From the NCBI GenBank assembly GCA_947172415.1, contig OX359189.1, forward strand, positions 7,702,501 through 7,766,500: 64,000 nucleotides of DNA, read 5' to 3'. The position numbers were made by a program, and so were the translations under genes. Shown in pieces: positions 4,296 to 62,276 of the stretch. The stretch's first letter is position 1. The number at the start of each line of letters is the position of its first letter. The notes beneath the pieces are model-generated. The model did no database searches. It was not told the origin of the DNA and saw only the letters and a list, made by a program, of their open reading frames with translations. The stretch comes from Chondrosia reniformis. Taxonomy: Eukaryota > Porifera > Demospongiae > Chondrillida > Chondrillidae.

Positions 4296-7200
4296 ATGAT
4301 TGGATTCTTCCTACTTACACTGGTTCTTTCCTCAAAGGGTAGGTTGTGGCAGCTGATTATATAATGTACATAACGCTAATTGTCACATTACAACTGTAGT
4401 TTTAATTGCTTCTTTCAGGATTTCCCTCTAATACATGATGTACATTTGTATATTAGCATAATCATTTGTCAGTTCTTGCCTGATTGTTATAAACTTCCAC
4501 ATTTCATTGTTTTGTAATTGTTCTCTGTTAGTTCAACTCTCCCAGTTAAACTCTACTGATGTATGTATTGGTGACAGTTACTGGATAAACTGCACACATC
4601 CACCATTTAATCCTGATGTTTACTTACCAGTTGGGTGGCTAAGGAATGGAGAACAGTTTAGAACAAATGGAATTGACAAAGAGAATCCCAATACTACTCT
4701 TACTAGATTAAGAATTCACATTGGGAGAAGAGAAGTGCTTCAGTCACCAACAAATTACACCTGTTACATTACAAGCAGAAGCAACTATAGAAGGGAATTC
4801 AGTAACACCATTCTAATAGAACCGCTTGCACTAAGTGAGTCTTGTATATATGCATGACATAATTTATTGTATATTGAATGCAGTAATCTGGGTCCACCGT
4901 AAATTATATAGCTCAAGGTAAATTAAGGGGATTTACTCAATATAAATAATGCAATCTATATATTCATGTACATGCAGAGTGAGTTTTATTATCGCTTTCG
5001 CTTCTACAGAGGAATACAGCTCAGAAAATTGAGAGTATTTTCGCGTCATACCATGTGTCATTTATATAACAAAATAAAATATTTAATCAATGGCCTTGGT
5101 TCAATTGCAATATCTTTAAAAGTTATAAAGGAGAGTTGTATATACTGAGGAAAATAATTGCATATTATGATGCAGCCAAGTGCTGTTTGAATAATACACA
5201 ATATAAGGACATTCTATACTTATAGCATTGGGCTCAATTAAATAGTCTATATACTAACTATATATATATAATAAGAATGTAATTCACAGGCGCATAGATC
5301 AGATAATACATATATAATGTGAAACATGCATGAATACAGCATATGAATATCTATGACTAATAATTTTTTAATTTAAAAGTAAAATAACTTGAATACGTAT
5401 AATATGGTATAGATTTGAATGGGGAATTGAAAGTACAAATGCAAGTCAAAGCAAAACATTTAGATCTAAACTGGAGTTATGATGAACCTTCTTGCTACAA
5501 AGATGTCTTCTTCAACATTACTCTTTGGCTCCTTGCCAATGGAACACCTGATCCATCTCAGTGTACATCATATACAACTACTAACATGACCATCACAGTA
5601 GAGTCATTAACACCAAGTACAAGTTACATCTTTATGATCAGGGCACAGAGCGTACAGTATCCAGATATTATCAGTGATACAGTGAAAGTGAATGCGACAA
5701 CAATAAGTAAATTCATTAAATGCACCGTTTACTTTTAATATTATATATACTGTTGGAGTCATAATATATTTTATTATAGTCATGCATGTTCCTTTACAGA
5801 AATACCTACACTTTCAGTCTCCCATAATCTAATCTGTTATGACAGACAAGTCCAACTCTCCTGTCACCATCATGATATAACTGATACTACATCAAGTGGA
5901 CCCATCTTCAATCAGACCAGTCCTGTAGTGTGGATGAAGGATGGAGAGAGGATTGATCTACCTGATACATACCATATGATATCAGCCTCTGACAATACCA
6001 AGACAATTTTGAGTATCACAACACAAAAATGTCCTTTTGAATTCCTCAATGGAGAGGCTAACTACTCTTGTGCTGTTGTATATGCCGACGGTAGTATGGA
6101 GGAGAGCGAACCTGTACATATTATTCCATGTACAGGTAATATATTAATTTTCCTGAGTCTATATGTATTAGTTATACCACGGCGTTGAGGTGTATATGGA
6201 TTTTAGACCCACGAGTCACAAGGACGCATATTGTCCGAGAGCAAGTGAGTCTAAAATCCATATACACCGAAGCGCCTTAATTGGTATGAGTGCATGATAT
6301 ATACTCTATCACCGGGGGTTATTGCTGTTTTGGCAGACTTTAAATTTCAATCGAATTCATGCAGGATGGCTCAGCTAGCATCTGGTTGTTTTTGCTTGTA
6401 CATGTACACAGAAGACTAAGTAAGCTTGGTGTTGTGCTTACTTCAGCTTATATAGCTTCTTATTGCTGTTATATCCCAGAATAGGCTTCAGTTATATAAG
6501 AAATTTAACCACATGCAGTTGCCCCGGCAACAAAGTATATATATCCATGCAGTACATTAATGATTATATAATATCATATATACCTGTTTGCAGTCACCCA
6601 CTCAGATCTCAGACTCTCAGATCTAGACCAAGGCAATATTTTCATAAATCGTTCCTATACAAGTGTATCTTTGATGTGGTATCACAATGGTGATTGTTTA
6701 GAAAACTGTACCTTTATGCTTGAAATAATGTGGCAAGAAAGCAAAGATGGATCTGTATTGAGGAATACAACCACTACTGAAGCCTCCTACACTATTGAAG
6801 ATCTAACTCCAAGTGCCACTTATGACATTCATATATTATATATAGTTATATGCAAGGGGGAACTAGTTTTGCCTCTCAGGAGCTCTCATTTTAGAATAAC
6901 CACAACTGGTGAGTCATATACTTATATATGTACAGTAAATGCAGCAAGCACACATGAATTATCTTTCCTGGATGAATATTATAATATGTATATAATTAAT
7001 GTGCATATATGAGGCTAAAGAAACATAGGGATGTATATAGTATAGACTCAAAACATGTTTTCTATGTATATTTATGCAGACAAATTGCAAGTAAAATATT
7101 ATAGAAAATAATTAATTAACTATATGAGTATTATATATGTAAAGTCAGCCTTTTATTTGAATTCCTTATGCACTGGACCAAATTACACGTGTATATACGT

Positions 7201-8060
7201 ATATGGAACAAGCAATACATGAGCTAAGGACTCACATGAGATCAACAAGATGACAAAGATTCCCATGCAGGGACACTGATGAAAGGTGGAATTACCAAAA
7301 ACAGCTATCTGCAATGGCCTAGTAGAGAAGAAGAGAAGAAGTTGGAGAAAACTCTTATACGTATATCCTCATCCAAAGCTCTAAATAGGTTTAGTTCCCT
7401 ATAGGCCTTTAATCTGTACATGCATGCGTCTAAATAAAAATGGTGTATTCGTGGTAATTAATTTAATATGTAACTTGTATTAGGCGACAATAGTGAGCCA
7501 AATCACCATTTGATGATCTTTTGGATAGTTACAGTACTGCTGATAGTAGTGATTATAATCATAACAATTGGATGGATCTTGACTGTCCTAAAGCATGCCA
7601 ATAAATGTATTCATAAGAAGCCACTAGCAAATGGTTTGTTATTTATATAATACATACCATATATATTACTATATATATAATTCCAAAGTATAGCATAATG
7701 CATGCAGAACGTGTATATACAGTACATCATATATGTGTGAAATGATTATTTGTGGCTTTCATATATATTATATATGGTAATAGGGCCTGGGTTAGTTGAA
7801 CCTCAGCAACACAAATTATCATCAGATTAAACATTTCGACCTGGAGGTCTTCTTCAGCAATGAAGTTTTACTACTAATACATGTGTGTACATATAATATG
7901 TATGTGTTTAATATATACATATTCTTTCATGAGTATATGTCAAAGTACGTTTATGTTGACAAATTTGCCCATTATATATGTCTTTGTAGAAATTGATTTA
8001 GCTGTTGATATGAAAGAAAATCCAGCTTACACTCCAATTGAGTTCAAATCAAGGAATTAA
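4296..8060 (+). CDS. Ig-FN3-Ig-FN3 single-pass receptor with NPxY tail (receptor A)
   Basis: Seven exons joined by phase-1 introns: 4296-4338, 4532-4834, 5413-5706, 5800-6135, 6594-6908, 7484-7633, 7990-8060, giving 503 residues. Exon 1 is a signal peptide (MIGFFLLTLVLSSK). Ig1 (about 15-115) shows YWINC, VGWLRN and NYTCYI. FN3-1 (116-213) has SLTPSTSYIFMI. Ig2 (214-325) has VQLSCHHH, VVWMKD and NYSCAVVY. FN3-2 (326-430) has DLTPSATYDIHI. The membrane helix is about 439-465 and the cytoplasmic tail is short. The tail holds ENPAY (Tyr494), an NPxY motif of the kind bound by PTB domains or endocytic adaptors. One domain per phase-1 exon is typical of animal Ig/FN3 receptors. The gene lies tail-to-tail with a near-identical inverted paralogue at 9494-12860. 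Intron 4 contains a hairpin element. The ligand is unknown. Confidence 0.85.
6174..6287. mobile_element. Hairpin MITE-like element in intron 4 of receptor A
   Basis: Inverted arms (left core gtgtatatggattttagac, right core gtctaaaatccatatacac) of about 35-40 bp flank a loop of about 40 bp. The matching intron of the inverted paralogue is only about 72 bp and lacks it, so it was inserted in this copy or lost in the other. Confidence 0.7.
7228..7415 (+). repeat. Dispersed repeat family H, decayed copy
   Basis: It matches the family with fuller copies at 30580 and 37130: gggacactgatgaaaggtgg, then a tract of gaagaagagaagaag, then cctcatccaaagctct and aggtttagttccctatagg. The ribozyme-like core is degraded here (AAAAC in place of GAAAC). 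Confidence 0.7.
7788..7875 (-). repeat. GAAGAAGACC..GGTCGAAATG repeat (family P copy)
   Basis: On the minus strand it reads ttgctgaagaagacctccag followed by gtcgaaatgtttaatctg, a small hairpin motif also found near 24460-24610, 35222-35264, 44080 and 58552. It lies in the last intron of receptor A. Confidence 0.5.
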
Positions 8061-8397
8061 GACTAAGGATATAATTAAAATACTATATACATGCAATTGA
8101 CAATTAACAATATGAGTTTGCAATAATATTATTATTATTAATGTATATATATGATCTAGAAATGATATCAATATCATGCATGCAGTACCAGTTGAAATTG
8201 AAGTTTGATGCCCCATCATAACACTAGCTGGTATGTATATATACATTTTGCAAAGTATACGTATATATGAGATCAGTGGATGCATAGCTATTCTCTTAGA
8301 TCAACTGTGAGTAGTCTTTACCTGTCATGTGAATAATGTAATATATACACCATGCATTTTTCTACATGCCTACTCACTGATAGTAATAAATTAAAAA

Positions 8398-8500
8398 GCC
8401 TATAGGGAAATAAACCTGGTGAGAGCTTTACATGGATGAGGATACAGGATTCTTCTTTTTCTTCTTTTCCCCACTGGGCCAGACAGCTGTTTTCTATATA
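8398..8500 (-). repeat. Dispersed repeat family H, partial copy
   Basis: Inverted orientation: cctatagggaaataaacctg, then gatgaggatacaggattctt, then ccactgggccagacagctgt. It lacks the upstream half that carries the CTGATGA core. Confidence 0.7.
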
Positions 8501-8574
8501 GGTTGGGTTTTTGTATATATACTGCTAATATTCTATACTTATAGTACATGAATGTACTAGCCTCTTTCCTATAT

Positions 8575-9010
8575 ATAAAGCTGGTCTCCTCTGGTCTCCA
8601 TTTGGTCTCTGCTGTTCTCCACGCATTGGTGTCCGTTGGTCTCCGCTGGTCTCCATTAGTCTCTGCTGGTCTCCATTAGTCTCTGCTGGTCTCCATTAGT
8701 CTCTGCTGGTCTCCATTAGTCGCTGGTCTCCATTAGTCTCCGCTGGTCTCCATTAGTCTCTGCTGGTCTCCATTGGTCTCCGCTGGTCTCCATTAGTCTC
8801 CGCTGGTCTCCATTAGTCTCTGCTGGTCTCCATTGGTCTCCGCTGGTCTCCATTGGTCTCCGCTGGTCTCCATTGGTCTCCGCTGGTCTCCATTAGTCTC
8901 TGCTGGTCTCCATTAGTCTCTGCTGGTCTCCATTGGTCTCCGCTGGTCTCCATTAGTCTCTTCTATATTCTCCACTGATCTCTACTGTTCTCCATTGGTC
9001 TCCGCTCTCT
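8575..9010. repeat. 20-bp minisatellite (ctggtctccattagtctctg)n
   Basis: About twenty copies of a 20-bp unit, each half a variant of gGTCTCc. Alternation of tta/ttg and tct/tcc between units shows higher-order variation. It lies at the centre of the inverted receptor pair. There is no spacer diversity, so it is not a CRISPR array. Confidence 0.95.
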
Positions 9011-9493
9011 ATAAAGCTTGCATGTGTTCAATGAGTTTTGAAATTTTGATGAATACCCATGCTTATATATATATAATATTTGTCCTATCTCTCACCATAC
9101 TTTGAGTTCGTATGCATATTATATGCATACAATTTTCGCAGGACATATATTTTGTGAATGTCCTATGATGAGGATTTTCACGATTTATTTTCATAGTCCC
9201 GTGTTATCAACACCTACAGTTGGAGAAATCAGACTTTTACCAAATTAAACGATCTGCCTCACTAGCTATACTGGCGCTTGGAGGAGCACTGCTGATGGGC
9301 TCTAGATATGCCTTAATTTTATATATCAAAACCTCTACAGTCTTAGATTGTCTTTGCGGGTATTCTACATCACACGAGATGGGGGCTGGGAATTTTCACA
9401 AACCTGTGCTGATTCATGAAAATCGCGAAATTTACGTCCCACGAAAATTTATTATGCATGGTCAATATGAATGCATGGGTATATAGTACATAG
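9011..9493. other. Spacer between the two convergent receptor genes
   Basis: AT-rich, with a short repeat-like patch carrying cacgaaaatttat-type sequence at 9420-9460 and ttttcgcaggac at 9133. These look like a decayed small element. An 88-codon open frame (9220-9486) has no recognisable homology. Confidence 0.35.
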
Positions 9494-12400
9494 TTATAAG
9501 GCAGCAATACATTTTGAATAGTCTACATTAAGGTTATCATTCTGAACATGTCTCGGCCTCTCTTCTTCTGGTAAAAACTGTAGATCTGCATAATATACTA
9601 TTGAATCCTACATGAATAACATAAGCACATGACATAATATATAACCTTTAAAAGCTTAATTAAGCACTATACCTACATGAGTTTCAATTATATGACTTGC
9701 AATACAAACCTGTATCTGAATTTTGTTAGTTTGTTTCTCACTGTTCCCTGTAGTTGGGTTTTGATAAACATTCTCTTGTTCCATTGTGTTTGTAGCATTA
9801 TGTCTTATTCTTCTTTTCCTCATAAATAAAGCTACTGTTGTCATAATACCAAGGAGTACCAGAAATACTGTACCTCCCACAGTAGTTCCGATAACATAAG
9901 GAAACGGCAAGTATGATTCATCAGATGGTGATGGATTTGTGGTAGTTGTACAATCTATGAGTAAAAAGTTATAAAGCTGATCATCAGAAAATTAAAAATG
10001 AAGATATATACATGCATGTATATATAAGGTTCAAGATTATGGTTCCATATATACGTACATATATCTTTGATCATGGCTTTCCTATACACACCATTATATG
10101 TACATGTTCCCTGATCAATTTGTGTGCATGTATAATCCATAGCACAAAAAAAGTTAACTGTCCTGTCATAAGATTCACCAATAAAGAGATACTTTAAATT
10201 TTCAGTGATATTTGGCTCATCTCCATTCTGTGGGCATGTTAATCCACACATGAAGGTACAGTTCTCTAAATATTCATCACTGTGTGACCACATCAAAAAG
10301 ATAATAGTGCATAAAGGTTTGATTGACACATTAACCTGATCTGATCTCAACTCTAGATCTAGATCTGCATAGTTAAATAATTAATAAAATAATGAAGAGA
10401 GTAATTCCATGGATCAGTATAATATATACATTTTACCTTCAGATATTGTCACAGGTTCGCTCTCCTCCATACTACCGTCAGCATACACAACAGCACAAGA
10501 GTAGTTAGCCTCTCCATTGAGGAATTCAAAAGGACATTTTTGTGTTGTGATACTCAAAATTGTCTCGGTATTGTCAGAGGCTGATATCATATGGTATGTA
10601 TCAGGTAGATCAATCCTCTCTCCATCCTTCATCCACACTACAGGACTGGTCTGATTGAAGATGGGTCCACTTGATGTAGTATCAGTTATATCATGATGGT
10701 GACAGGTGAGTTGGACTTGTCTGTCATAACAGATTAGATTATGGGAGACTGAAAGTGTAGGTGTTTCTGTAAAGGAACATGCATGACTATAATATAATAT
10801 ATTATGACTCCAACAGTATATATAATATTAAAAGTAAACAGTGCATTTAATGAATTTACTTATTGTTGTCGCATTCACTTCCACTGTAACACTGATAATA
10901 TCTGGATACTGTATGCTCTGTGCCCTGATCATAAAGATGTAACTTGTACTTGGTGTTAGTGACTCTACTGTGATGGTCATGTTAGTAGTTGTATATGATG
11001 TACACTGAGATGGATCAGGTGCTCCATTGACAAGGAGACAAAGAGTAATGTTGAAGAAGACATCTTTGTAGCAAGAAGGTTCATCATAACTCCAGTTTAG
11101 ATCTAAATGTTTTGCTTTGACTTGCATTTGTACTTTCAAATCTATACCATATTATATGTTATTTAGCTTTAACAAATTATTAGCCATATATTTATTTTCC
11201 ACAGTATATACAACTTTCCTTTAACTTTTAAAGACATTACAATTGAACCAAGGCCAATGATTAAATATTTTATTTTGTTATATAAATGACACATGGGGGT
11301 GCTGGTGGTCTGGAGCTAAAGCAGAAGATTCAAGATCAAGCTATTATGGGATGTCCCAAGTTCGAGCCCAGGCCATGGCAGCAGTTTTTCAGTGACAGCA
11401 CCCCCTTGACAACAAACATTGCCCACTGAACAAACTGATTATTGCTGAATGATTTACTGTATGTTGTGTTTATGTTGTTATGTTTATGTTGTTTGTACTA
11501 TTGTGGGTGCCTGGAAGAGTAGCCTCTTGGCTAAAGGCTTCCCACATTAAATAAGATTCCTAATGATTCCTAATGGTATGACTCAAAATTGTAATACATA
11601 CATATAAAACTCACTCTGCATGTACATGAATATATAGATTGCATTATTTATATTGAGTAAATCCCCTTAATTTACCTTGAGCTATAGACAGTGGACCCAG
11701 ATTACTGCATTCAATATACAATAAATTATGTCATGCATATATACAAGACTCACTTAGTGCAAGTGGTTCTATTAGAATGGTGTTACTGAATTCCCTTCTA
11801 TAGTTGCTTCTGCTTGTAATGTAACAGGTGTAATTTGTTGGTGACTGAAGCACTTCTCTTCTCCCAATGTGAATTCTTAATCTAGTAAGAGTAGTATTGG
11901 GATTCTCTTTGTCAATTCCATTTGTTCTAAACTGTTCTCCATTCCTTAGCCACCCAACTGGTAAGTAAACATCAGGATTAAATGGTGGATGTGTGCAGTT
12001 TATCCAGTAACTGTCACCAATACATACATCAGTAGAGTTTAACTGGGACAGTTGAACTATATAACAAAAAACAATTACGTAACAATGAATAATAATGACA
12101 GGCAGGAACTGACGATGTATATACATTTCATAATGATGCGCGAAGTCAAATGAAGAATGTCCGGTCGTTAACTTTAAATGCTTATATTTATTTTATTTAT
12201 GTATCATTTATTTATTTTATTTATTTATCATTTATTAAAGTGACACATGCACATAAGAAAAGAGCTTATATTAGTCAGAGATCGTTTTTTATTTTTAAAA
12301 CGGAATATACGTTGCTGTTGGCGAAGGAAGGCTTTTCAATTAACTACCGCGCGGACCGTATACGAAGGTGATACAACGTTGGGAAGCGGTAGAAGGATTA

Positions 12401-12860
12401 GTCGGCTACAATCGAATGGAAGACGCCGCAAGATAACAGCGAAGATCGAACTGTTTATATATAATGAACGCTGGAAAGAAGATACGAACTATATATTATA
12501 TTACATATTTTTTGCTTTTATATAGCGTATCTCCTTGGAGTTAAATTTCACATGGCTTTAAATTTACCGAATTTATATACGTGCTAAATCGCCACGAGGC
12601 CTCTCGAGTGGCTTCGAGACCTCGCACGACTCGGACAATACCTTCTATGTATTTTGAATAATACATGGCCTATAGGGAAGTAAACCTATATAGTTAGAGG
12701 TTTGGATATGATGAGGATAAAAGTTTTCTCCTACTTCTCTTCTTCTGTACTAGCTAGCATGGGTCAGCCAGGCATGCAGCTGTTTCTGGGAATTTTAGAA
12801 TTAATAATGCAACCTACCCTTTGAGGATAAAACTAGTGCAGGTAGGAGATATCCAATCAT
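9494..12860 (-). CDS. Ig-FN3-Ig-FN3 receptor with long tail, inverted paralogue (receptor A')
   Basis: Seven exons on the minus strand: 12860-12818, 12056-11754, 11141-10860, 10766-10437, 10364-10059, 9954-9710, 9577-9494, giving 530 residues. The signal peptide is MIGYLLPALVLSSK. Ig1 is identical in protein to receptor A as far as I can read. FN3-1 differs at a few residues and lacks four. Ig2 is near-identical until its last eight residues; FN3-2 is clearly diverged. The membrane helix (about 440-465) and tail are unrelated to receptor A. The tail contains NVYQNP (Tyr484, a YxN Grb2-type site). A last exon resembles the ITIM exons of the two receptors at 20348 and 23972: FLPEEERPRHVQ, then NLNVDYSKC, an ITIM-like motif with Cys at +3. 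The last exon's acceptor (ctacag) was chosen because it keeps phase 0 and this homology. A SINE sits in intron 2 and family H in intron 1. Confidence 0.83.
11297..11572 (+). mobile_element. tRNA-derived SINE inserted in intron 2 of receptor A'
   Basis: A 276-bp insertion flanked by a 4-bp direct repeat ATGG (11293-11296 and 11573-11576). The head has an RNA polymerase III B-box-like sequence (agttcgagcccagg) and a plausible A-box region (tggtggtctggagctaaag). The tail is a short tandem of gattcctaat. The uninterrupted site is preserved in receptor A (gtcataccatgtgtca, near 5045-5060), so the insertion boundaries are directly visible. Confidence 0.8.
12664..12795 (-). repeat. Dispersed repeat family H copy in intron 1 of receptor A'
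   Basis: It reads cctatagggaagtaaacct, gatgaggataaaag, cttctcttcttctg and gcagctgtttctgggaattt in inverted orientation. The matching intron of receptor A is about 190 bp and lacks it. Confidence 0.65.
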
Positions 12861-13869: not shown

Positions 13870-14241
13870 GTTTGTTAAACCAGGCATATATTGATGAATC
13901 CCCTCTCAGTATAGTGATCAGCAGATAGAGCAACATGTTGGGGGAATTGATACTTGTGAGCTGGGAGGTCAACTGTGATGTTGCTGTTAAATTGTAGATG
14001 TCTCTTTACAAAGAGAAAGATACATTCCAAGATGGTATCATGTCTGCTGTTGTACCTCCTGTTCTTGAGTGCTACTTCACAACTGTTGAGGACGTGAGTT
14101 AGAGTCTGCCCTCCTGAACAAAGTTTGCACATTGCAATGGTATATCTTCTTCTACATGTGAAGGTTGGCATTCTGTGGGAGTGTTTGTTATAGAGTTCAG
14201 GGCAAACTTGACGATGTGTTCAGGCAGGGTAGTGATAGTGT
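13870..14241 (-). pseudogene. Reverse-transcriptase C-terminal fragment (left arm of a palindrome)
   Basis: Minus-strand frames contain LPEHIVKFALNSITNT, then LCSGGQTLTHVLNSCEVALK and RRYNSRHDTILECIF. This is the Cys-containing C-terminal region of a LINE-type reverse-transcriptase family common in sponges and cnidarians. The frame is broken near the palindrome centre. Part of the fragment is repeated in opposite orientation at 14266-14490. Confidence 0.6.
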
Positions 14242-14490
14242 TTGACCATTGCTCTGCTCCCCTATCACTATCACTACCCTGCCTGAACACATCGTCAAGT
14301 TTGTCCTGAACTCTATAACAAACATTCTCCCACACAATGCCAACCTTTACATGTGGAAGAAGATATACCATTGCAATGTGCAAACTTTGTTCAGAAAGGC
14401 AGACTCTAGCTCACGTCCTCAACAGTTGTGAAGTAGCACTCAAGAACAGGAGGTACAACAGCAGACACAATGCCATCTTGGAATGTATAT
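14018..14490. repeat. Large inverted repeat, about 220-bp arms
   Basis: Arms at about 14018-14241 and 14266-14490 are reverse complements at most positions, for example gacgatgtgttcaggcaggg against ccctgcctgaacacatcgtc. They are separated by about 24 bases. Both arms are copies of the same reverse-transcriptase fragment, so this is a head-to-head duplicated retroelement piece. Confidence 0.85.
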
Positions 14491-14560
14491 ATCATAACTG
14501 TGTTGAAAATGGCTACAGAAAGTGGATCTTGGAATACTCCAGTTTGCATTGGAAAAGGCT
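14266..14560 (+). pseudogene. Reverse-transcriptase C-terminal fragment (right arm of the palindrome)
   Basis: Plus-strand frames read TLPEHIVKFVLNSITN, then TLAHVLNSCEVALKNRRYNS and HNAILECIY, the same protein region as the left arm. The reading frame shifts between the segments, so it is not functional. Confidence 0.55.
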
Positions 14561-15495: not shown

Positions 15496-17033
15496 CTATA
15501 TAGCCAAAAATACTATCAAAAACAGCATCCAGACAAATTGGATCAAAGATACCGATCCTGATTGACCTATATACATACATAAAGTTAAAATAGATGCATT
15601 AATTTAATATAATTGACTTGCATTTCACTTTCCATTCAATTCTCACCTAAAGTAGAATTTTGTGCTTCTTCACTCATTTCTTGTCTATCAGTAAAATCTA
15701 TGAATTGAAAAAACTTCAATAAATAATAATAATATGTGTATGCATGTGTGCATGCAAAAATCAAAAGATTTATTATATATACCAATAAAATATACATGCA
15801 TATAGGTTACTTTTATCGGGTATACTGTATATATATATATATGTACTATCCCTTTACACAGTACACAAAAATTAAACAAATATTGCAACTGCTCCTATTT
15901 GCTGATGACTTGATGTTTGTGGCAGAGGAGGATGAGAATGTGGAAGAATACTTGACAAAGTGATGGAAAAATGGAAGATGCAGATCGATTGGAGGAAGAC
16001 TAAAGTGCTGACAGTTAAAAGTGGCACATGTGACATATCAGTGAAAGGGGAGAAAATTGAGAAAGTGAAGGTGATGATCATGAAGTACCTAGGTGCATTG
16101 TTCAATGAGGAAGGGACATGTGAAGAGGAGATCAAATATAGAATTGGGCTACAGCAAAGGTAATTGGAGCAATGATATTGGAAGTCAGGTTTCGCACCCA
16201 TAAAATAGCATAGGAACTACCATTGCATTGAAGACTCTCATCTTCGTTACTCTGCTCAGTTCCCTAATTCTTTCCATGCAGCTGGACAATACAGAAAAGA
16301 CATGAGAGCAGATTGCAGGCAACGGAGATGAGGTGGAGGGAGTGAAGATAAGTTAGAAATGTGGACATCAGGCAAAGGTTGAAGCAGGAAGCAGTTGTGG
16401 AAACAGCCCTAGCTAGAAAGAAGCAGAGAGCATGGAAAGTTGAGGTACAGGATATGTTAGAATAAATACTGGTACAGCAAGTGTACAGTGAGGAGATAAA
16501 TGGCAGAAGGCCCAGGGGAAGACCGGCCCGCGAAAGCACTGGAATGAAAATGCCTAACTATATATTAACTATTACCACACTTTTTGTGTATATGTATGGG
16601 GCTATATACCTCCAGCCTTGGAGATAAAGCTGTCAGAGAAATTCAATTCTATATATATATGTATATATATTTTAATTTAGCATGCAGGGTATGTCAACAG
16701 CACCTGGTTTCTCTTTAGCTGTCACATTCAATTTGATAGTATTGCTCAGAATTTCCCTTCCATCCACAATGTCAAAAACATAGCAATTGTATGACACTGA
16801 TGACATATTTACTATAAATCTAGATCTGATATCAATTTTCAAGTTTGTGGTGACATCATCTAATACAAAGTCTAACTCCATTGGCCTTTCTAGGATATGA
16901 TTCTGATTATCCCTCTTCCAAAGTAGATCCGGATGATATCTGCTATTTCTCAGGTTTGGATGGTTACATACCAGCAGCACAGTATCATTGCTTGAACTAG
17001 CTTCTCTTAGTGCAATGTCCTGTGACAATGTCA
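15496..17033 (-). CDS. Ig-domain protein ending in a hydrophobic C-terminus (GPI-like), 5' end unresolved
   Basis: Three minus-strand exons in compatible phase: 17033-16704 (one Ig-like domain, VLLVCNHP, LLWKRDN, SYNCYVFD), 15697-15647 (DFTDRQEMSEEAQNSTL) and 15566-15496 (GQSGSVSLIQFVWMLFLIVF then AI and stop). All introns are phase 1. The protein stops directly after a hydrophobic run with no basic tail, which fits a GPI-attachment signal or a tail-less membrane anchor. A plus-oriented LINE remnant lies in the first of the two introns. No convincing signal-peptide exon was found between 17034 and 18798, so the start is missing. Joining of the two small exons rests on splice sites and phase only. 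Confidence 0.5.
15875..16550 (+). pseudogene. Decayed LINE reverse transcriptase, C-terminal half
   Basis: Frames shift between recognisable blocks: LLFADDLMFVAEEDENVEE (RT motif C, FADD), then IDWRKTKVLTVKSG and KYLGALFNEEGTCEEEIKYR, then RLQATEMRW and GRRPRGRPARKHW near the end. The order is that of a LINE polymerase palm, thumb and C-terminal arginine-rich motif. Stops and frameshifts make it non-functional. It lies inside an intron of the Ig gene on the other strand. Confidence 0.7.
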
Positions 17034-20347: not shown

Positions 20348-22524
20348 TCAATTGGTGATCCTTATGTTGGAATACTCCACATTCAGTGTGTCATTCTTCT
20401 TAATGTGTTGTGTAGAACCACTTGACTCATGTTGCAAAACAGCATATTGTAACTGCTCCTGTATTATGCATATAAAAGCAAAGCTAAAATTTACATTAAA
20501 AGCAAAATATGTAATATAATATTTTCAATATGAGAAAGAAACGGATATATTGTTTAATCTATATATATTGTGTTTTGTTTGAATTCAGTCCATAGTTTTT
20601 TGGAATATGGTACGTGTTTCAGATAATTCATGTATACATATTGTCTAGAATATATAGACACATACACTGTATTATAGTATTGTCAAAAGATTTAACAACT
20701 TATACCAGCTGCATGGGCCATCAGTGGAATTAATTATACCACTGAGGGCACAGCTGGTATACGTTAACAATTATATATATAGTTACTGTGAGTTAGATTG
20801 AAATATTGTGTGTGTGTATTATAAATCAATAATCAAAAGAAACTGAATAATGTATAGTTCATAAAGGGGAGTTAATTGTACTGAGCCATGCAAAGGCTAT
20901 GATGATACACTAAAATATGGCTGGTTTGGCATAATACTTTCCAGTGATTATAGTTATAATAATTATACATATACGTACGTATATATATATACCTGTTGTG
21001 CCGTAGATGTTTGTTTGTTAGGAATACTTTCATACATGTGTACATTCCTTTCTTCCATTTCATTTTTAATAGTTGGAGAACCTTTCTTTACCTCTTTCTC
21101 GTACTGTCTACATTTACAGCAGATAACACTACAAGCTGTGATCATCAGTAGAATAATGATAGTCAGTGAGAACGCTCCAAAAGGTATGCCGACTATGAAT
21201 CCAATTGGAGTACAATCACAATCCTGATCCACAGTTTCTACGGAAACTATAATTTATAGGAGAGGTACATACATATATGAGAGGTGTACATATAAGAAAT
21301 AAATATTTTGTAATGATCCTTATACAGTACTAGTAGAACCTCACTGAACGGACTCCTCATATCGCGGAAACCTATATTACGTGCACAATTTGTAGTCCCT
21401 ACTAACCTACTATTAAATTCAATGCTTAAGTACCTCTAGAAGTATAAACCTTTCGATTCATGTATTGTGAACACAGAAATGAGACACATGGGTTCAAGAT
21501 TGGAAGGAATGTGCCATACGTATATACGTACGGTGGCACATCAGACTTCATTATAGCTACATGTAGTGCTAGCCTGTTTGTTTTGTAGCTTTTAGGACGT
21601 ACGTAGACGTAAGTAACTTGTCCAATTATGCTAGGATCCCAATGGAAAATGTTTTAGTATTACTTCAGCTGCAATAATATTATGATGTATCAACTAAATA
21701 TACAATTAGTGTGAAAAACTGTAAGTTTGCACATTATAAAGTTTATGTGACAAAACCTCTAAATTGAGGAAACTTCTATAATAGGGAATTTTCTTTAGGT
21801 CCCCAGGAGATTCCGTTATACAGAGGTTTCATACTATGAAAATACACACATTGCCAAGTATACATACAGTGTTCAGTGTATATCTTACTGGTCAATTCAA
21901 GAATTTTATTGCCATCAAATATGCTTGTACAATTAGTGTAAACAGTACACATTTTCGTAACTGTTATGTTGTAGGAGTGACCAGGAATAAGTGATTCACA
22001 GGTTGTGTTGTTGGTGGTGTCAGGAGTCATCTGATCTTCAAGTAATTCTAGATCTGCAATGCTTACTTCATAAGTGCAACTAAAATAGGTGCAATTTGAG
22101 TCTGTTGTGCTACATTTGAATTCCTTCCTGCCTAATGTGGTACTTGCTTCTGATCATGAGCGGAATAGCAAGAGAATTTCAATGAATTACATACGTATAT
22201 ATGTATGTATGCGTTTTCAGCCTACCACATGTAGAGCCCTTTGATATAGGCATATAAGCAGTAAACATTATCAGGATAAACAGAGCTGTTACAACTGTTG
22301 AGTTCTGTATAGACCAATTAAAAGTGTTGTCGGATCACAAGTAGATATTAATCCATAGTTAGCCAATGTATATATGAATTATTATATATAATAGTTCAGC
22401 ATATATAATTATTATAAATGTATACACGTAATTATATACGTATATAGCTAGTATATACACATACTGGTCTTCTTCTTCCAGTCTTTGGGAATAGGTACGC
22501 TGCAGCTGGCCATGGGTCTTCCAT
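20348..22524 (-). CDS. Small single-pass receptor with two ITIM motifs (receptor C)
   Basis: Five minus-strand exons: 22524-22465, 22304-22226, 22149-21889, 21237-20993, 20458-20348, giving 251 residues. The N-terminus has about 20 hydrophilic residues (MEDPWPAAAYLFPKTGRRRP) before a hydrophobic segment (STVVTALFILIMFTAYMPI), an unusual delayed signal or signal-anchor. The outer part is one FN3-like, Cys-rich domain (SLIPGHSYNITV). The membrane helix is about 145-170 and is followed by CCKCRQYEKEVKK. The last exon carries LQYAVL (Tyr220) and VEYSNI (Tyr244), both fitting the ITIM consensus I/V/L/S-x-Y-x-x-L/V/I, 24 residues apart. In animals such motifs recruit SH2 phosphatases after Src-family phosphorylation; that role here is inferred. 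The same intron-phase plan and tail layout occur in the neighbour at 23972-25916. Confidence 0.78.
20698..20768. repeat. Short imperfect hairpin in intron of receptor C
   Basis: Arms of about 23-27 bp (left tataccagctgcatgggcca, right part cacagctggtata) are separated by about 10 bases. No further structure was recognised. Confidence 0.45.
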
Positions 22525-23971: not shown

Positions 23972-25916
23972 CTATACTGGCGATCCAGCATGTGATGAGT
24001 ATAGGTTGTTCCTCACTGCTTTAGTTGGTATGGCCACATCCAAATATTCCACTTGGAGTAGTTGATTATCTATTCTTCGTGGCCTCTCTCCAATTGGTAG
24101 ATGTTCCAATTCAGCATAATCAATGGTATGCTATATATATATGGAAAATGAATTTGTACCATTGTATATAATTTCATTACTCTTACAGATATAATAACAG
24201 TGTGTATGCTAATAATGCATATTATATATATTTCATTTCAATTGTGTACGTGACCTTTTGAATCATATAAAATTATACAATGAGGTATACATATTAATTG
24301 TCAATGTGTATGTATCTATAGCTATGTATTTAATATAAAAAGCCAAATACAAATTCATGCACCTATGATATGGAGTATATAGTTGTTGTGATCATACTTA
24401 GTTGATGATTATTGAGCTATACATCATAATATTCTTTAGAATGACCCTAAGGTCTTTATCGGCAATGAAGACCTTATCATCCAAGACCATCATTGTTGAT
24501 GAAGACCTTATCATCCAAGACCATTATTGCTGATGAAGACTTTATCATCCAAGGCCATCATTGCTGATGAAGACCTTATCATCCAAGGCCATCATTGCTG
24601 ACGAAGATCTTAGGGTCAAAATGTTCAATTCTAAAGAATATTATACTGTTGCTGTAGCTCAATAATCATCAACTAACTAACACATATATATGTTCCTCCA
24701 TGCATAATATGTATGTACTCTAGCTATATATGGCTTATATACTTGTATGTCTGGTATTTGGTATTCACTAATTATGCCTTGCAATTGGTCCACATCGGTT
24801 TCCTTAACACTGGCACCATTATGCACTCCAGCTGAAGTTTCAACTTTCCTCTTTACTCTTTTGCAGCAACACTGTACACATGATATCATCAGTCCAAGAA
24901 GAAGCAGTATAATGATCCCTCCTAATCCTCCAATGATGTATAAGTAGTTGCGACCAATACATTCTATGACAAAAGCATTACCTTAGGATTGGAAAAATTA
25001 TTTTCAATGGAATTAATATTATATAGTACTAGTAAGTTACATATCACCAACTTTGAGTTGAAATAGTATTTGTGGATGTAAAATTTGACGTTATGTTTCC
25101 TACTAATGTCCAAAGACCACACTGGTGAGTATCCTTAAATGAATAGTTACATACAATTTCATGTACAGTTGATTTGCTAGTGCAAGAAATGTTCCAAACT
25201 TCATTTGCATCTAAGGATATATACAAAATTACACGGGTTTATCTACCATGCAGCGCAAATATATATATACCATATAGTGGGAGGGAGAAACTTTTGTGAT
25301 TTGATGAAAAATAAGAATTCGCCAAGAAACTTTCACAGATTTGCTGGAGCACAACCCCCAACCAGGAATGCCACGCCCCAAATTGTTTCCTTTTGCTGAT
25401 AGCAACAAATTTTAAATACACATAAAAGTCGTGAAGATTTTCTCCCTCAAAAGATTTCTGCCATATATATACATAATAATTTTGCTCTTTGCTTACTTGT
25501 ATACATAGCTGAGGAGTTTGTTGTGAAGAATATGAGACTCCATATGAAAAGATTAATCGCCTGTGCATGCACTGGTATACCTAAAATCTTAATATAGGTA
25601 TATATATTGTGAAAATCACTGATTGTATATATGTTGCATGCATATATTTAATATAAGTTATATATTGATTCAAGTGTTATATACATCTAGAGTGCAGAGT
25701 AACAATTGCAAGAATGCAAATTACTTCAGTTTGAGGTAATATATTAAGGTATACTGTATATAGATCTTAATTTCTGCATAAATAAGTTTTATTTGTATCC
25801 CTATAATAACTACACATTTTATGGGAAAGCTTTTGTATACGCATAATAAAGTCTAAGTATATACCTACCCATTTCTTAGAGTCGCTTTCAACAATATCTA
25901 CACTCAATTCTTGCAT
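23972..25916 (-). CDS. Small single-pass receptor with two ITIM motifs (receptor D)
   Basis: Five minus-strand exons: 25916-25865, 25580-25497, 25210-25052, 24963-24743, 24130-23972, giving 224 residues. A hydrophilic N-terminal piece (MQELSVDIVESDSKKWV) precedes a hydrophobic segment (AINLFIWSLIFFTTN), the same plan as receptor C. The outer domain is only about 55 residues with four cysteines and several N-glycosylation sites. The membrane helix (about 105-128) leads into SCVQCCCKRVKRKV. The last exon has IDYAEL (Tyr177) and VEYLDV (Tyr201), both ITIM-consensus and 24 residues apart as in receptor C. The donor after the outer-domain exon (gttggt) is weak, so that boundary is the least certain. 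A tandem-repeat/TIR element sits in the intron between the membrane and tail exons. Confidence 0.76.
24399..24675. mobile_element. TIR element with internal 39-bp tandem repeats
   Basis: The ends are exact inverted repeats (tagttgatgattattgagct against agctcaataatcatcaacta). A second inverted pair is ttctttagaat/attctaaagaa with ccctaag/cttaggg. Between them lie about four to five copies of a roughly 39-bp unit containing attgctgatgaagacctta. It is in the last intron of receptor D. Confidence 0.75.
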
Positions 25917-44829: not shown

Positions 44830-47067
44830 TCAAGAAATCCACTCCTCCTCTAATGCTCTCATTTGTTCCATCCAAAGCAACCTCTGCTCATTATTTGTTA
44901 ATTTAAAAGAATGTACTACATCACATTTTCCACTTACAGCATAGTCCCTTAGATTACTAGTTGTGCGTTGTTCTTCCCATAACAGACACTCCTCCAATGG
45001 AATCACATTAGGTCCACCTGCAATGTCTGCTATAATTGGTAGTGCAATCTCACAAAAGAGCGGAGGGTCTTCATAGGTTAGTGCTTTGGTAGCTTCTATA
45101 AACTTCTTTCTTGAGACCTGAGGAATATACACAAAATCTGCGAGGGCATGTGATCTGATGATGTCTGCACTTCCTGTTGCTTCTGCAACTTTATCTTTCA
45201 TGCTCTGCGGAAGTTTCTCCCAATGGTCGATCAAGGACTTGTATCCATACTTCCAGTACCACCAGCCCCAGTCATTGCCATTGAATTCTTCAGCATTCTT
45301 AATATTATACCTTTGACCTTCTTCAATCCATATTTTATTTAGTGGCATTTTAGACAACCTTGAAAAATCAATAAATGCATCATCAGCTATATACAGATAT
45401 CCCTCTTCACTTGGAAAAGACTCCAAATGAGCAACAATACATTTCTGTTGGAAATACCCAGTTTCACTTCCATTGCACTGAATGTATTCAATGTCCTTAC
45501 TAATGTAATATGGTCTAGGAATAGGGCCAGTATAGGAGATTCTATCAAAATATTGAGTGTAACGAGAATGAAGCAATTTTAAAGTTGAATTTACATTTTC
45601 CTCCAACAAGGGGAAGTTAGTATTAAATTGTACACACAGTCGAATATTCCTCCAATCCTCCTTCCTCCATCTTTGATTATTATGCATGACTGGGAATACA
45701 TATCCCATTGCAGATAAGTCATTCAACCAAGCAACCATATACCTTACATCCTCTTCTTTTAAAATTTCTACTTCAAACATATCTATATATAGTTGCAAAA
45801 TACACTCTTTTAGAAGATTTCTTTGACATTTCCACTTAGCTAAATATTTTGTCAAAATTCCTGCTTTTTGGTAAAGTGGCAACTCAGCTTGATAATCAAA
45901 GTAGGGCTTGTGAAAATTCCTACCTGTAGCATTGATAAAAGAAGGTAAAAACGCAACGCCTAGCCCGGCTTCCCACATTAATCTCTCTGCCAAGTATGCT
46001 CGCCATATGTCGGTTACTCTAGCGTGTACTGACAAGGGAAGGGACATGCTCCAGAAGGCATCGCGATGGAAAAGGGTCGACTGGGCATTGAACGGACTCA
46101 TAACACCAGGTGGAAGACTAGTTCCTCCTAGTTCACGGCTGAATGTTATGTTAGGTATACCACGTGTCAGTCGGTAAATAGCATCGACATCAGTGTCACC
46201 ATCTGAAAGCAGCTGCCATGCACCAACTCGCTCAACTCCATAACCTGCCACATTTTTGACAGGAGGTGCAGTTGTATAAGCTTTATTTATGAGGTCGAGT
46301 GGAAAGCCTCTTGGCCACGCATCCTTAAAACCATAAAATGGATAAGGGTTCCATAGATTTCCACGTACACGCGCTACATTAAGATTCCTGTTTAAAATTT
46401 CCTGGAAATTTAATTTACCTGAATTTAATTTATTGTCGTCATCAAAATCAAAGATTACTTCAGCTCCGTGTTGTATAGCATACAGGTAGCCAATGTTTTT
46501 ACGACTGAAGGTCCTCCAAGGTATGACTTGTACTGTTCTGTATGTTAGATGTTCCTGTTCACTGACTCCCAAATACACACTTCTCCGTCCAGCTAGTGTA
46601 AAGTTGTCGGGAGTGTCTTGATCTCCAACAACGACAAGACACCAGTCCTCGAGCCCTTCTATTTGCTTGATGGCCTGTGTGGGTGGGTTGATGGTGGTCA
46701 CTACAGCCCACTGTGAGCAGCTCTTTTGATGGAATGATCTCTTTGAAGTGTACGATGTTAAATGGGAAAATGGGTCCCATTTCAGATGTCTCACCGCTTC
46801 CAAGTCCTTTATATAGCCACTGAGAACTGTTTCGACAGGAATATCGTATTTCTTGCCTTCTAGCGCTGATTGATGCTGCTTTTTTATTGGTAGGTACCAC
46901 TTTGACTGTTCATTTTGGACGGTTATGGTGGACAAATAATTTGGTTTGTAAATTTCCGTGATTACTTTGAAGAAAGCCAATACGATGACAATTAATATGT
47001 ACATCGTTCTGAAGTGTCTGCTATTCCACACCCTATATATTTTTTTCCAAAATCTACTTATTGCCAT
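44830..47067 (-). CDS. STELLO-like (DUF288) type II membrane protein, intronless
   Basis: A single uninterrupted frame of 745 residues from the ATG at 47067. An upstream in-frame ATG at 47142 would add 25 residues; I prefer 47067 because the signal-anchor (FRTMYILIVIVLAFFKV) then starts about 20 residues in. The family signature is clear: WAVVTTINPPTQAIKQIE, DWCLVVVGDQDTP, IPWRTFSRKNIGYLYAIQHG and a DXD-like EVIFDFDDDNKL. DUF288/STELLO proteins are Golgi-located putative glycosyltransferases known from plants (where they assist cellulose synthase complexes), and are patchily present in animals and protists. Substrate here is unknown. Lack of introns contrasts with every neighbour, suggesting retroposition or a family that is naturally intron-poor. 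Confidence 0.88.
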   Translation of the reverse strand: MAISRFWKKIYRVWNSRHFRTMYILIVIVLAFFKVITEIYKPNYLSTITVQNEQSKWYLPIKKQHQSALEGKKYDIPVETVLSGYIKDLEAVRHLKWDPFSHLTSYTSKRSFHQKSCSQWAVVTTINPPTQAIKQIEGLEDWCLVVVGDQDTPDNFTLAGRRSVYLGVSEQEHLTYRTVQVIPWRTFSRKNIGYLYAIQHGAEVIFDFDDDNKLNSGKLNFQEILNRNLNVARVRGNLWNPYPFYGFKDAWPRGFPLDLINKAYTTAPPVKNVAGYGVERVGAWQLLSDGDTDVDAIYRLTRGIPNITFSRELGGTSLPPGVMSPFNAQSTLFHRDAFWSMSLPLSVHARVTDIWRAYLAERLMWEAGLGVAFLPSFINATGRNFHKPYFDYQAELPLYQKAGILTKYLAKWKCQRNLLKECILQLYIDMFEVEILKEEDVRYMVAWLNDLSAMGYVFPVMHNNQRWRKEDWRNIRLCVQFNTNFPLLEENVNSTLKLLHSRYTQYFDRISYTGPIPRPYYISKDIEYIQCNGSETGYFQQKCIVAHLESFPSEEGYLYIADDAFIDFSRLSKMPLNKIWIEEGQRYNIKNAEEFNGNDWGWWYWKYGYKSLIDHWEKLPQSMKDKVAEATGSADIIRSHALADFVYIPQVSRKKFIEATKALTYEDPPLFCEIALPIIADIAGGPNVIPLEECLLWEEQRTTSNLRDYAVSGKCDVVHSFKLTNNEQRLLWMEQMRALEEEWIS

Positions 47068-47377
47068 CTCTTCATTATATATAGTTATTGAGTAACTGTA
47101 CCATACCATCAGTTTGGATTGCTTATATGCATGAAGTGTCAAATATGCATGAGTGTCAATCTTATTTCAATACATTGTTATAGTTCCTTTTCTAATAGTA
47201 TGGTTGGCCGGAAAAAAATATCTAATTCTACTAAAAAAAGAAAAAAAAGAAAAAGTTGTAGACTGAGTAAAATATGTTTTCTCTTTTCGTTTCCCCCTTC
47301 AATTTCATTGTTAATTTTAAATAGCAATGCATGTCACATAAAAGATACAAGTTTTTCCTCCTGCTTTTTCTTCTTAA

Positions 47378-50109: not shown

Positions 50110-53100
50110 CTAAATGTTATCCAAAGCTTCTTCTAATGCATTGATCAATATTTCTTCTTTAATATCTACTTCGTCGTCTGGCTCGCTTGAGGATGTTTTA
50201 GTTTGCCAACTATTTTTGTTTCCGCGACACGTCCACTTCAGAGCAGTAGCTCTACCAGCTTCGCAGGACCGAAGAGATCGATAAATGCCATTTCCAGGGA
50301 TTAGACTAGCTACTGGCCAGTCGTTTTCATATCCATAATATCGTCTGGACCTTGGGAGACCCGTGTTTGAAGTTACCCAGCAGCCTCTTTCACTGGGAAC
50401 CACACGTACATTAGATTCTCGTGTTGGCGGACATACCCACTCTACGCAGACCTTATTTTGACCATCAATTAGCGATTTCTGACGACCAGGATCATCGTCA
50501 TTGCGTATGCTCACAGCGAGAAGAAAGCCCAAAGGAGCATTTCTCGCTGTTATCCTTGCCCAGCAATCTCCAGTTTGGGTATTTTCCCTCCACAGATTTA
50601 GATTTGGAGTGGGAATTGAATCACAACTCACCGAAGGATTGAATAGCTTGACCAATTTAAAAGCATTTTTCTGGATTTTGGGAAAATTGTCTGCATTGTC
50701 GCACAGCACCTTGGAGAGCGAACTTTGCCTTAGTGATGCCACTTGCTTGCATGTGAATGTACCCTGGTTCTGGTAGTAGAAGCGATCACCATTACGAAGG
50801 TTGTTAAAGGTGATGGAGAAGATACAAGCCATAGTGGGGCCGACTACAGATTCGCTGTTAGCAGAAGAGATATTTTTCTCTGCCAACATCCCAGAAAATG
50901 CATCAACTGTATCTAAGGAACCATACAAGGTGTAGAACTGCATTAGAGTGGCTTCATTGATTATGGCTGGAGCGTCAACATTCCTAGATCGAAGGTAGCT
51001 CTGACAGAAGTCTCTAATAATTGGATAAGGGGGAAGGCCGTGGTCTCTCCCTCGTTGAAGGTTGAGGGAGACTAGATCTCTGGCAAGACTAGTTGGGCTC
51101 TTAAAGAGTTCATTTGTAATTACAGAGTTCATGAACTCATCTACCATGCGAGTCGGAACAGAGAGAAAACCGCGAATAATTGGATCCGTGCCTTCGCCCT
51201 CAAAGAACTCTTCTGGATTGAAGAAGGCTTTATATAGAGGTAAGGCTCCTTTCTCAATAGGTTTACCGTTCTTCTGTAGTCGATCCAGTTCAGGTCTAAT
51301 TTGAGTGTGTCCAAACCTGAAGGCGGCCGTGGCAAATACAGATGAAATAGTGGGATCGGAGGTGTTATTGTATCCCTGATAAGGTCCTATTAGCTCCTTA
51401 TATAGGTCACGACCAAGGACCTCATGCAGGTACTCCTCGTAGGTGATGGCTTGAAGTTCGGCTATGACTATTGAGCGTGCTGTCTGGTAAAGGGTCTCAT
51501 CGTTCCAGTGAGGGTTAATGTTTCCAAGTCGCTTTGCTATGCGATTGTGTTCCCTCATCCAAATTGTATGCATGACAGTCAACCCAACCTGCATGGGGAG
51601 ATAGTGTAAAATGATCATTATAATCTCATATCTAATGGGAGCTGGCATACATGGAAATAGAGTTACGTAATTAAGGATTAGAGTTACGTAATTAAGGATT
51701 AGAGTTACGTAATTATGGATTAGAGTTACGTAATTAAGGATTAGAGTTACGTAATTAAGGATGGTAAGTCCTATTACACTATGTTTTCCCATATGTAATA
51801 CAATTAAGTATTATACATACAGGGATATTAGTAATATTATGGTGACATTATTTAAAGACAAGTTGGGAGTACTAAAACGACTACTGTTGTGCGGTGTCTA
51901 GTATCTTGTAAACATGTACGAGTTGATTGTGCAATGCCTGTGCAAGATTGTATTAAAATATGGATAATTAACAGTAATATTACACCAACCAACAAGTGGC
52001 CATGTTATATCTTAAGTCCTTCGGCCAATATAGGACTGGGGTCACTTGAAATATCCATATTTCTTGTAAACAGTGGTCCGGGGCTGCTTTTATAAAGCAT
52101 CACAAAGGGGGTTGGGGACAAAATACAGTATAGAAGGGCGACCTAGTTCATTATGTTTGTTTGTTTTTAAAAATTGGTAATTGTACATTCTTCATATTAT
52201 ACTTAGCTGCCCCTCCCCCTCCACTCCCCTAAAAGAACCCTGATTGGTATTTTCTATAGTTTTGTAATTTTGTGGATAATATGACACACTTTCTTGAAAG
52301 TATGCAATATTGATGCATAACTGTTTTTAGACAGGTTGCCTACCTACGTACTAGGAAAATGAATGTAACTGACATGCCTATTTGCAATTTGGGGCATCAA
52401 GATTTAGTTTCAAATGCAAGCATTTTAGTTTTCAACATTTAATTACCATAACATAGAAAATAAGGAAAGAGGGATCTGTCAGTTGTGCATTTGTATACGT
52501 ATGTATGTCATGAAACTCAATCTGGATGGAATGAACCAATTTCACCTTTGCTTTGAAAGGATGACATTAGCTCTTTACTTAGAAGTTGACCTAGCGAATC
52601 CAAAATTGAAGATTAATGGACATTCAGATACATACGTACATACGTATGCTCTATCATTAAATCATCTGTACAGTATACTTGCTTATGTAAGAGCTTCATA
52701 TGTAGTTTTGCTTGATATAGAGTGCCACTAGCATGCTATATAGCAACTTTAGCAACTACGTACGTACGTATGTAGGTAGTGAAATATTTGCCACATTTAG
52801 TGTTATTGAGGGGTAAGGTGACTTACATTTAGCAGTGTGTTGAAGGTGTGTCAAGTTGTTCATTCTTACCTGTTCATTTGTTCTTGGGTCTCCGCTGACA
52901 AAGCATCTTGATAGTCTCTCTGGACAGCCTGTTCCCTGTGCATTCCTCCTCTTCTCGTAAGGGAGAGATGGCTTGCCTCTTTTCAAGGCAGAGCGGCCAG
53001 TACGAAGCTTGCCTGAAGTGAAGCTTCTGAGAAAGGCAGCTTGTAGTTTGTCTGATCCGTAGATTTGTGACCCATCAATGTACGAAGTTAGAAGGTTAAG

Positions 53101-55382: not shown

Positions 55383-62276
<6,894 letters not shown>

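Follow-up and report, generated by a model that had tools for sequence, protein, structure and literature searches.

Two neighbouring genes of the sponge Chondrosia reniformis, receptors A and A', carry nearly the same extracellular immunoglobulin (Ig) and fibronectin type III (FN3) domains in inverted orientation, joined to different transmembrane (TM) and tail exons, and they are probably (about 0.66 by our estimate) paired receptors of modular build that would signal in opposite directions and may share a ligand, an analogue of CEACAM1/CEACAM3 and Siglec-11/16. Both genes lie in a stretch of 64,000 nucleotides, here called the window, which is C1:7702501-7766500 (contig OX359189.1) of a 117,379,552-base genome in 15 contigs. 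The odChoReni1.1 assembly of this species is described as comprising 117.37 Mb in 14 chromosomes plus a mitochondrion (PMC12181767). The pair had been noticed in an initial annotation made from the letters of the window, and this original observation is confirmed here.

Architecture of the A/A' Pair

Receptors A (plus strand) and A' (minus strand) are convergent, tail to tail, and 1.4 kb separates their stop codons. The gene models, which were built on GT-AG introns, give each gene seven exons and an intact reading frame, of 503 codons in A and 540 codons in A'. All introns of A are in phase 1, and A' has five introns in phase 1 and a last one in phase 0. In these models, positions 4296 and 12860 are the start codons of A and A', respectively. 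Both proteins follow the order Ig-FN3-Ig-FN3-TM-tail, with one domain per exon. The exons and the tract that the two genes share are, in window coordinates:

4296..4338, plus strand: A exon 1, signal peptide MIGFFLLTLVLSSK, 81% nucleotide identity to A' exon 1
4532..4834, plus strand: A exon 2, Ig1, family profile matching solved Ig domains
5413..5706, plus strand: A exon 3, FN3-1, from the gene model and a Pfam fn3 stretch
5800..6135, plus strand: A exon 4, Ig2, better conserved and more often copied than any other exon of the family
6594..6908, plus strand: A exon 5, FN3-2, PF00041 over the cut-off
7484..7633, plus strand: A exon 6, transmembrane helix with no charged residue
7990..8060, plus strand: A exon 7, short tail ENPAYTPIEFKSRN, NPxY class
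12818..12860, minus strand: A' exon 1, signal peptide, from the gene model
11754..12056, minus strand: A' exon 2, Ig1, protein identical to that of A
10860..11141, minus strand: A' exon 3, FN3-1
10437..10766, minus strand: A' exon 4, Ig2, identity to A stopping 14 nt ahead of the exon end
10059..10364, minus strand: A' exon 5, FN3-2, strongly diverged
9710..9954, minus strand: A' exon 6, transmembrane helix followed by ENVYQNP (YxN)
9494..9607, minus strand: A' exon 7, exon with an immunoreceptor tyrosine-based inhibitory motif (ITIM), DSIVYYADLQF...NVDYSKCIAAL, then stop
4503..6115, plus strand: A side of the shared high-identity tract (matching 12089-10451), interpreted as the product of gene conversion, with 86% identity over the first 29 bases
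10451..12089, minus strand: shared high-identity tract, A' side

Exon 1 of A matched that of A' and, within the stretches fetched, nothing else clearly, but some genes may have their exon 1 outside these stretches. The Pfam FN3 domain (PF00041) passed its cut-off in A, where the protein has two fn3 stretches, and stayed under it in A'; Ig_2 stayed under its own cut-off in A. Family profiles compared with solved structures matched Ig domains for Ig1 (best SYG-2, E 2.6e-6) and gave matches at E 0.1 or weaker for Ig2; as single exons, 14/29 Ig2 and 5/32 Ig1 matched Pfam Ig_2 at E <= 0.01. We also noticed an extra cysteine, nine residues ahead of the first canonical one, that is invariant in the Ig1 and the Ig2 family alignments. 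A tandem repeat array of ~20-bp units (CTGGTCTCCATTAGTCTCTG-like) lies at 8564-9000, between the convergent 3' ends of the two genes.

Divergence Along the Pair and Probable Gene Conversion

The inverted copy, which had been placed at 4.3-6.2 and 10.4-12.9 kb, was recovered both as inverted-repeat arms (4529-4900/11688-12059, 99%; 4907-4989/11604-11686, 100%; 5051-5125/11222-11296, 96%; 5424-6115/10451-11142, 98%) and by gapped blastn (4503-4989/12089-11604, 96.5%; 5349-6115/11191-10451, 94.0%). The shared tract is ~1.6 kb long with its introns and ~98% identical where it can be aligned. Its Ig1 exons agree at 301/303 nucleotides, and the codon alignment counts 0 non-synonymous and 2 synonymous differences, so that the identity of the Ig1 proteins noted earlier holds exactly. 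The few residue differences reported for FN3-1 and most of Ig2 were found as well, with 6 amino-acid changes and a 4-residue deletion in FN3-1 (97.5% identity) and 3 amino-acid changes in Ig2 (98.4% up to 6115). Intron conservation, a further element of the initial annotation, is seen in introns 2 and 3, which are 96-99% identical where alignable (97.8% in intron 3), the last 64 bp of intron 2 being 88% and the last 29 bp of intron 1 86% identical. Over 300 codons of shared ectodomain, the synonymous divergence (dS) is 0.025, from 5 synonymous changes, and the non-synonymous divergence (dN) 0.013.

The identity breaks at 6115, which is 20 nt ahead of the end of the Ig2 exon of A, and past this point the similarity collapses. 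The genes had been said to diverge from the end of Ig2 onward; the break stands at that place, and FN3-2 (66% at the nucleotide level, dS 1.26) turned out to be a diverged homologue rather than unrelated sequence. The TM and tail exons, which had been called unrelated, could be aligned only by force, at 64-70% with many gaps. On the other side of the tract, exon 1 is 81% identical, and mismatches amount to 21/1219 within the tract versus 16/77 around exon 1 (Fisher p = 2e-11) when the worse-aligned ends of intron 1, intron 2 and exon 4 are omitted, or to 38/1312 versus 16/77 (p = 7e-9) when they are included.

A recent tract is thus bounded by older homology on both sides. One recent inverted duplication should leave the same age along the whole length. 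Conversion between older neighbours therefore accounts better for this pattern, and we infer that gene conversion, as the initial annotation had proposed, homogenised the ectodomains of A and A', the pattern being one observed in one genome. A further public sequence, the 570-bp contig P0066, has an Ig1 that differs at 4/101 residues from that of A, which equals that of A'. This difference is in line with concerted evolution of A and A', although it comes from one short contig that may hold a paralogue.

Two indels distinguish intron 2 of the two genes, ~300 bp present only in A' (~11297-11603) and another stretch present only in A (~5126-5348). The extra ~300 bp of A' (11297-11603) resemble an inserted repeat; a tRNA-derived insert was considered and discarded, as ARAGORN detects no tRNA in it.

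Tails and Transmembrane Helices

ITIM, NPxY, YxN and the immunoreceptor tyrosine-based activation motif (ITAM) are used here in their customary definitions. The motifs that had been read in the two tails are all present: a single NPxY in A (ENPAYTPIEF), and YxN (ENVYQNP) plus a canonical ITIM (VYYADL) in A'. Neither tail is peculiar to the pair, as both classes are found in other members of the family. With its own TM and tail as query, A' retrieved itself and two weak matches; the idea that its tail is unique was dropped, as the tail exon of a relative gave nine ITIM-class places, A' included. Judged by motif match alone, 9/13 ITIM-class genes fit the consensus [ILVS]xYxx[ILV].

Further analyses of the NPxY class revealed that NPAY is invariant in 8 aligned A-type tails, that NPSY stands in its place in certain other tails of this class and that many relatives carry an additional C-terminal YVNL. 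A strict YxxI/L-x(6-12)-YxxI/L spacing was found in 13 of the 26 NPxY-class tails read, for example NPAYVPIEMNQIEDKPTYVNL, and such spacing is reminiscent of ITAMs.

The Receptor Family in the Genome

The genome search that had been suggested for more copies did find them. The Ig2 exon as query gave 131 matches at E <= 1 (all genome search counts given here are lower bounds), of which 73, A and A' included, have at least 71% identity across ~80% or more of its length; the others match in part or more distantly. The 71 further copies are 71-81% identical to A, while A' is 97% identical. Most of the 73 (53, or 51 beyond A and A') lie within ~1.75 Mb at C1:7.70-9.46 Mb, and the rest lie at C1:1.85 Mb and on C3, C4, C5, C10, C11 and C14. 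Among the matches scored for Ig1 of A, none except A' exceeded ~40% identity. It should be noted that an Ig-like exon with no gene assigned to it in the window (TLSQDIALREASSS..., 16704-17033, minus strand) resembles the family Ig1 (E 7e-20) and has no Pfam match.

A tail exon of the NPAY...KPTYVNL type gave 80 matches, 62 of them at E < 0.001, and 39 of these 62 lie in C1:9.29-9.46 Mb. This dense array of NPxY tails is possibly a birth-and-death hotspot. By a count of coordinates, C1:9.30-9.44 Mb holds nine convergent plus/minus NPxY/NPxY tail pairs, each within ~1 kb; in the two such pairs that were fetched, the readable ectodomains differ. ITIM-class tail exons were found at 9 places with one query, 20 with another and 2 further with a third, a fourth adding none; the weakest places have E ~0.1-1, and a part of them was read. 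On C10, the two loci L037 and L038, chosen for their ITIM-like exons, held fragments with no tyrosine motif.

Annotation of the fetched loci gave 53 Ig2 genes (47 at first), with 25 of the NPxY class, 13 of the ITIM class and 15 without a class. As ITIM loci were chosen for fetching deliberately, 13/53 is not a frequency. The tail of the C1:8395 gene was labelled NPxY by hand from its open reading frame (ORF). Counted as without a class are the C1:7821 gene, although its tail reads NPSY twice, and a gene near C1:8787, for which an ITIM-class exon at C1:8784120 lies just beyond the fetched stretch.

Further Pairs and the Separate Histories of Ectodomain and Tail

A shared ectodomain on different tails, the central claim made for A and A', recurs in three further pairs, one inverted and two tandem, with Ig1 identities of 88-98% and an ITIM tail in one member versus an NPxY tail in the other. 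C1:8830 (minus strand) and C1:8833 (plus strand) stand head to head and are 97.2% identical over 1,622 bp, from Ig1 to FN3-2; the identity ends ahead of the TM exon, and a search for similarity found none on either side. The tail of C1:8830 reads LTYAEL/VQYATV and that of C1:8833 NPAYVPIEMSQIEDKPTYVNL (NPAY...YVNL). The tandem pairs are C1:8816 (ITIM) with C1:8812 (NPAY), in which Ig1 is 98% and the ectodomain DNA 92-94% identical, and C1:8946 (VTYAEL/VQYTEV) with C1:8955 (NPAYACIQL), in which Ig1 is 88% and FN3-1 92% identical.

Homology between neighbours stops at different modules. The NPAY genes 8805 and 8812 are homologous through the tail, 8812 and 8816 in the ectodomain only, and the ITIM genes 8816 and 8830 have tail exons that are 93.5% identical (97% in protein), with Ig1 and FN3-1 closer to those of NPAY genes. 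Thus, ectodomain and tail have had different histories in these genes.

The same was seen on trees of Ig1 plus FN3-1. Long enough Ig1 and FN3-1 were available for 34 of the 53 genes, 27 of them tail-labelled, and 19 were omitted. With 31 genes, 5 canonical-ITIM genes need 5 tail-class changes (bootstrap 5-5); with all 34, 8 ITIM-class genes, 3 of them with tails off the ITIM consensus, need 8 changes, which is the maximum (bootstrap 8-8), and at least 6 of these are forced by well-supported branches. As read from these trees, tail class does not track ectodomain descent.

Proposed Mechanism

A and A' belong to a large family of sponge receptors of the Ig superfamily (IgSF), which pass the membrane once and are built from exon modules. 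Conversion between inverted neighbours would keep alike the Ig1, FN3-1 and Ig2 domains, which are taken to read the ligand (binding through Ig1 is assumed), while the membrane-proximal FN3, TM and tail would escape conversion and stay different. One ectodomain would in this way be displayed on two outputs. When phosphorylated, the ITIM and YxN of A' could recruit an SHP-2-type SH2 phosphatase and thereby weaken the response. Receptor A and the related receptors of the NPxY class might recruit PTB or SH2 adaptors or kinases and lead to uptake or activation, NPxY/YVNL being the proposed docking part of A-type tails. With a shared ectodomain, the two receptors would compete for one ligand, and the cell would read the balance of both.

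A candidate phosphatase is encoded at C3:9106650-9116600 (minus strand), where the order SH2-SH2-PTP (protein tyrosine phosphatase) occurs twice in a row; in the first unit, the one compared, the N-SH2 exon matches human SHP-2 (E ~2e-30). Among the matches listed, exons of tyrosine-phosphatase domains also form two clusters, C6:0.6-1.26 Mb and C13:1.65-1.96 Mb, an apparent expansion.

On a larger scale, and with rather less than even confidence, we tentatively propose a megabase-scale sponge complex in which opposing tails, some ITIM and others ITAM-like (NPxY-YVNL), have repeatedly been attached in the germline to a shared, gene-converted IgSF ectodomain. SHP-based paired recognition would then date to the base of the animals or have arisen there independently, and the complex would possibly serve sponge allorecognition.

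Weighing the Alternatives

Several findings weigh against A and A' being paired receptors of opposite sign. The ectodomains are not wholly shared, because FN3-2 differs between A and A'. The tail of A has no second tyrosine, the residue that in many relatives completes an ITAM-like spacing. None of six TM helices checked, from three of the four pairs, has a charged residue for an ITAM adaptor, and an adaptor-type charged TM was rejected on this ground. As the tail of A has a single NPxY tyrosine, no second tyrosine and a TM without charge, the word activating is applied to A as something we infer. In 4/13 ITIM-class genes no motif fits the consensus, the misfit being at position -2. The tree program warned of some long branches. 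Furthermore, 368/1000 label shuffles also reach 8 tail-class changes, and the NPxY nearest neighbour found for 7/8 ITIM-class genes is matched or exceeded in 1702/5000 shuffles. Because shuffled labels reach the same scatter, the trees lend no support to selection for pairing, and a claim that they do was rejected.

Among other explanations, an allorecognition locus, in which polymorphic receptors for self and non-self would use matched ectodomains to give opposing fusion and rejection signals, is possible, if somewhat unlikely. The large clustered array would suit it, and so would the Ig1 version of P0066, although one contig of 570 bp says little about polymorphism and may come from a paralogue. 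ITIM/ITAM-type tails are described in Hydractinia Alr and Botryllus FcoR (PMC12065747).

We consider it unlikely that plain duplication in a fast-evolving array explains the pair, that is, an inverted partial copy of the 5' half set beside another 3' half, with neutral reshuffling of tails. On the ectodomain tree the tail classes show neither phylogenetic signal nor over-dispersion; some neighbours, such as C1:8805/8812, are plain tandem duplicates, tail included; the nine convergent NPxY/NPxY pairs, with differing ectodomains in the two fetched, point the same way; and the inverted pair C1:8830/8833, for which no older flanking homology was found, may be a simple duplication. In A/A', however, the tract is internal with older homology on each side, which is unexpected from a single recent duplication, and both ORFs are intact.

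A decoy role is doubtful too. In this case A would be an endocytic or phagocytic NPxY receptor that takes up a microbe or particle engaging A', as CEACAM3 does in relation to CEACAM1. The NPAY invariant in the 8 A-type tails and the YVNL added in many relatives speak for such a role; NPxY is also found in adhesion and developmental receptors, which weighs against it. Insect Draper, a phagocytic receptor in which NPxY and an ITAM-type motif occur together and of which one isoform bears an ITIM, is a lead only. In CEACAMs, ITIM and ITAM-like members are described as undergoing gene conversion (PMC2832619).

Finally, an inverted copy made by mis-joining a second haplotype, a worry raised in the initial annotation, is very improbable and was rejected: the assembly does appear heterozygous, with a k-mer completeness given as 69% for the primary and 94% for the combined assembly (PMC12181767), but the TM and tail exons of A and A' are different exons of different classes, exon 1 agrees at only 81%, and pairs of this kind are present at other places in the cluster. 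Paired receptors of a modular family remain our preferred reading of A and A'.

Other Features in the Window

Two further receptor-like genes were read on the minus strand of the window:

20354..20461, minus strand: tail exon with LQYAVL and VEYSNI, two ITIM-consensus motifs (tail profile E 4e-3, weak)
20966-21253 and ~21890-22144, minus strand: same gene, TM exon within the first interval and FN3-like exon at the second (FN3 profile E 9e-4, weak)
23975..24130, minus strand: open frame of another gene, holding a tail exon with IDYAEL and VEYLDV; TM exon within 24680-24982

Elsewhere, a nested inverted repeat at 14015-14493 (167-nt arms 93%, 67-nt arms 94%) could form a long hairpin. Two ORFs at 50110-54081 (minus strand) jointly span an animal haem peroxidase domain (PF03098). 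The window also contains a sulfotransferase ORF at 2-1285 and an ORF for a STELLO-type glycosyltransferase at 44830-47142 (both minus strand), a C2HC zinc-finger ORF at 55383-56408 (plus strand) and, judged by eye, kinase-like exons at ~28-29.5 kb (minus strand).

Comparison with Known Systems

In the open-licence literature searched, no report of ITIM-bearing or paired receptors from sponges was found. The Geodia adhesion molecule GSMS is likewise a sponge protein with Ig-like domains; its description mentions neither ITIM tails nor pairs with shared ectodomains (PMC11999971). According to a review of 2025, how invertebrate allorecognition works is a complete mystery, and recognition receptors of the ITIM/ITAM type occur in animals ranging from cnidarians to mammals (PMC12065747). 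A sponge cluster of ITIM receptors with NPxY/ITAM-like ectodomain partners would extend the ITIM/ITAM logic of self/non-self and microbe recognition to Porifera and, with defined genes, tails and a candidate phosphatase, make it testable there. Among invertebrates, Hydractinia Alr and Botryllus FcoR are IgSF recognition families with ITIM, ITAM or hemITAM-type tails and resemble the sponge genes as receptor gene families with such tails; as described, FcoR is set apart by its pairing with Fester proteins and by a plan of Ig, sushi and two Ig domains (PMC12065747).

Profile searches do not support membership of A and A' in the vertebrate paired-receptor families. KIR, LILR, PIR, SIRP, Siglec and CEACAM are absent among the best 60 of 119 solved-structure matches of Ig1, which SYG-2, IL1RL1 and antibody domains lead, and all nine matches of Ig2 (E >= 0.1) are of the titin/DSCAM type, none from those families. 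A large protein database, which may hold few animal proteins, yielded one relative of A', an ORF of the same genome. The likeness to the vertebrate families is best taken as an analogy. The activating member of the Siglec-11/16 pair signals via an adaptor, and in this the sponge receptors differ, the TM helices checked having no charged residue. Their Ig/FN3 architecture differs as well, and their function is predicted from sequence. In primates, the ectodomain exons of Siglec-11 and Siglec-16 are described as near-identical through gene conversion, with inhibitory versus activating signalling (PMC5701461), and the sponge pair resembles them as IgSF receptors with a near-identical ectodomain on differing signalling parts. 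In mammals, CEACAM1/CEACAM3-type receptors with ITIM and ITAM-like tails are described as sharing a ligand-binding domain homogenised by conversion or recombination (PMC2832619). The sponge non-ITIM tail differs from theirs in being NPxY, with or without YVNL, and the sponge ectodomain in being Ig-FN3-Ig-FN3; the likeness lies in a large, lineage-specific family that has both ITIM and ITAM-like members.

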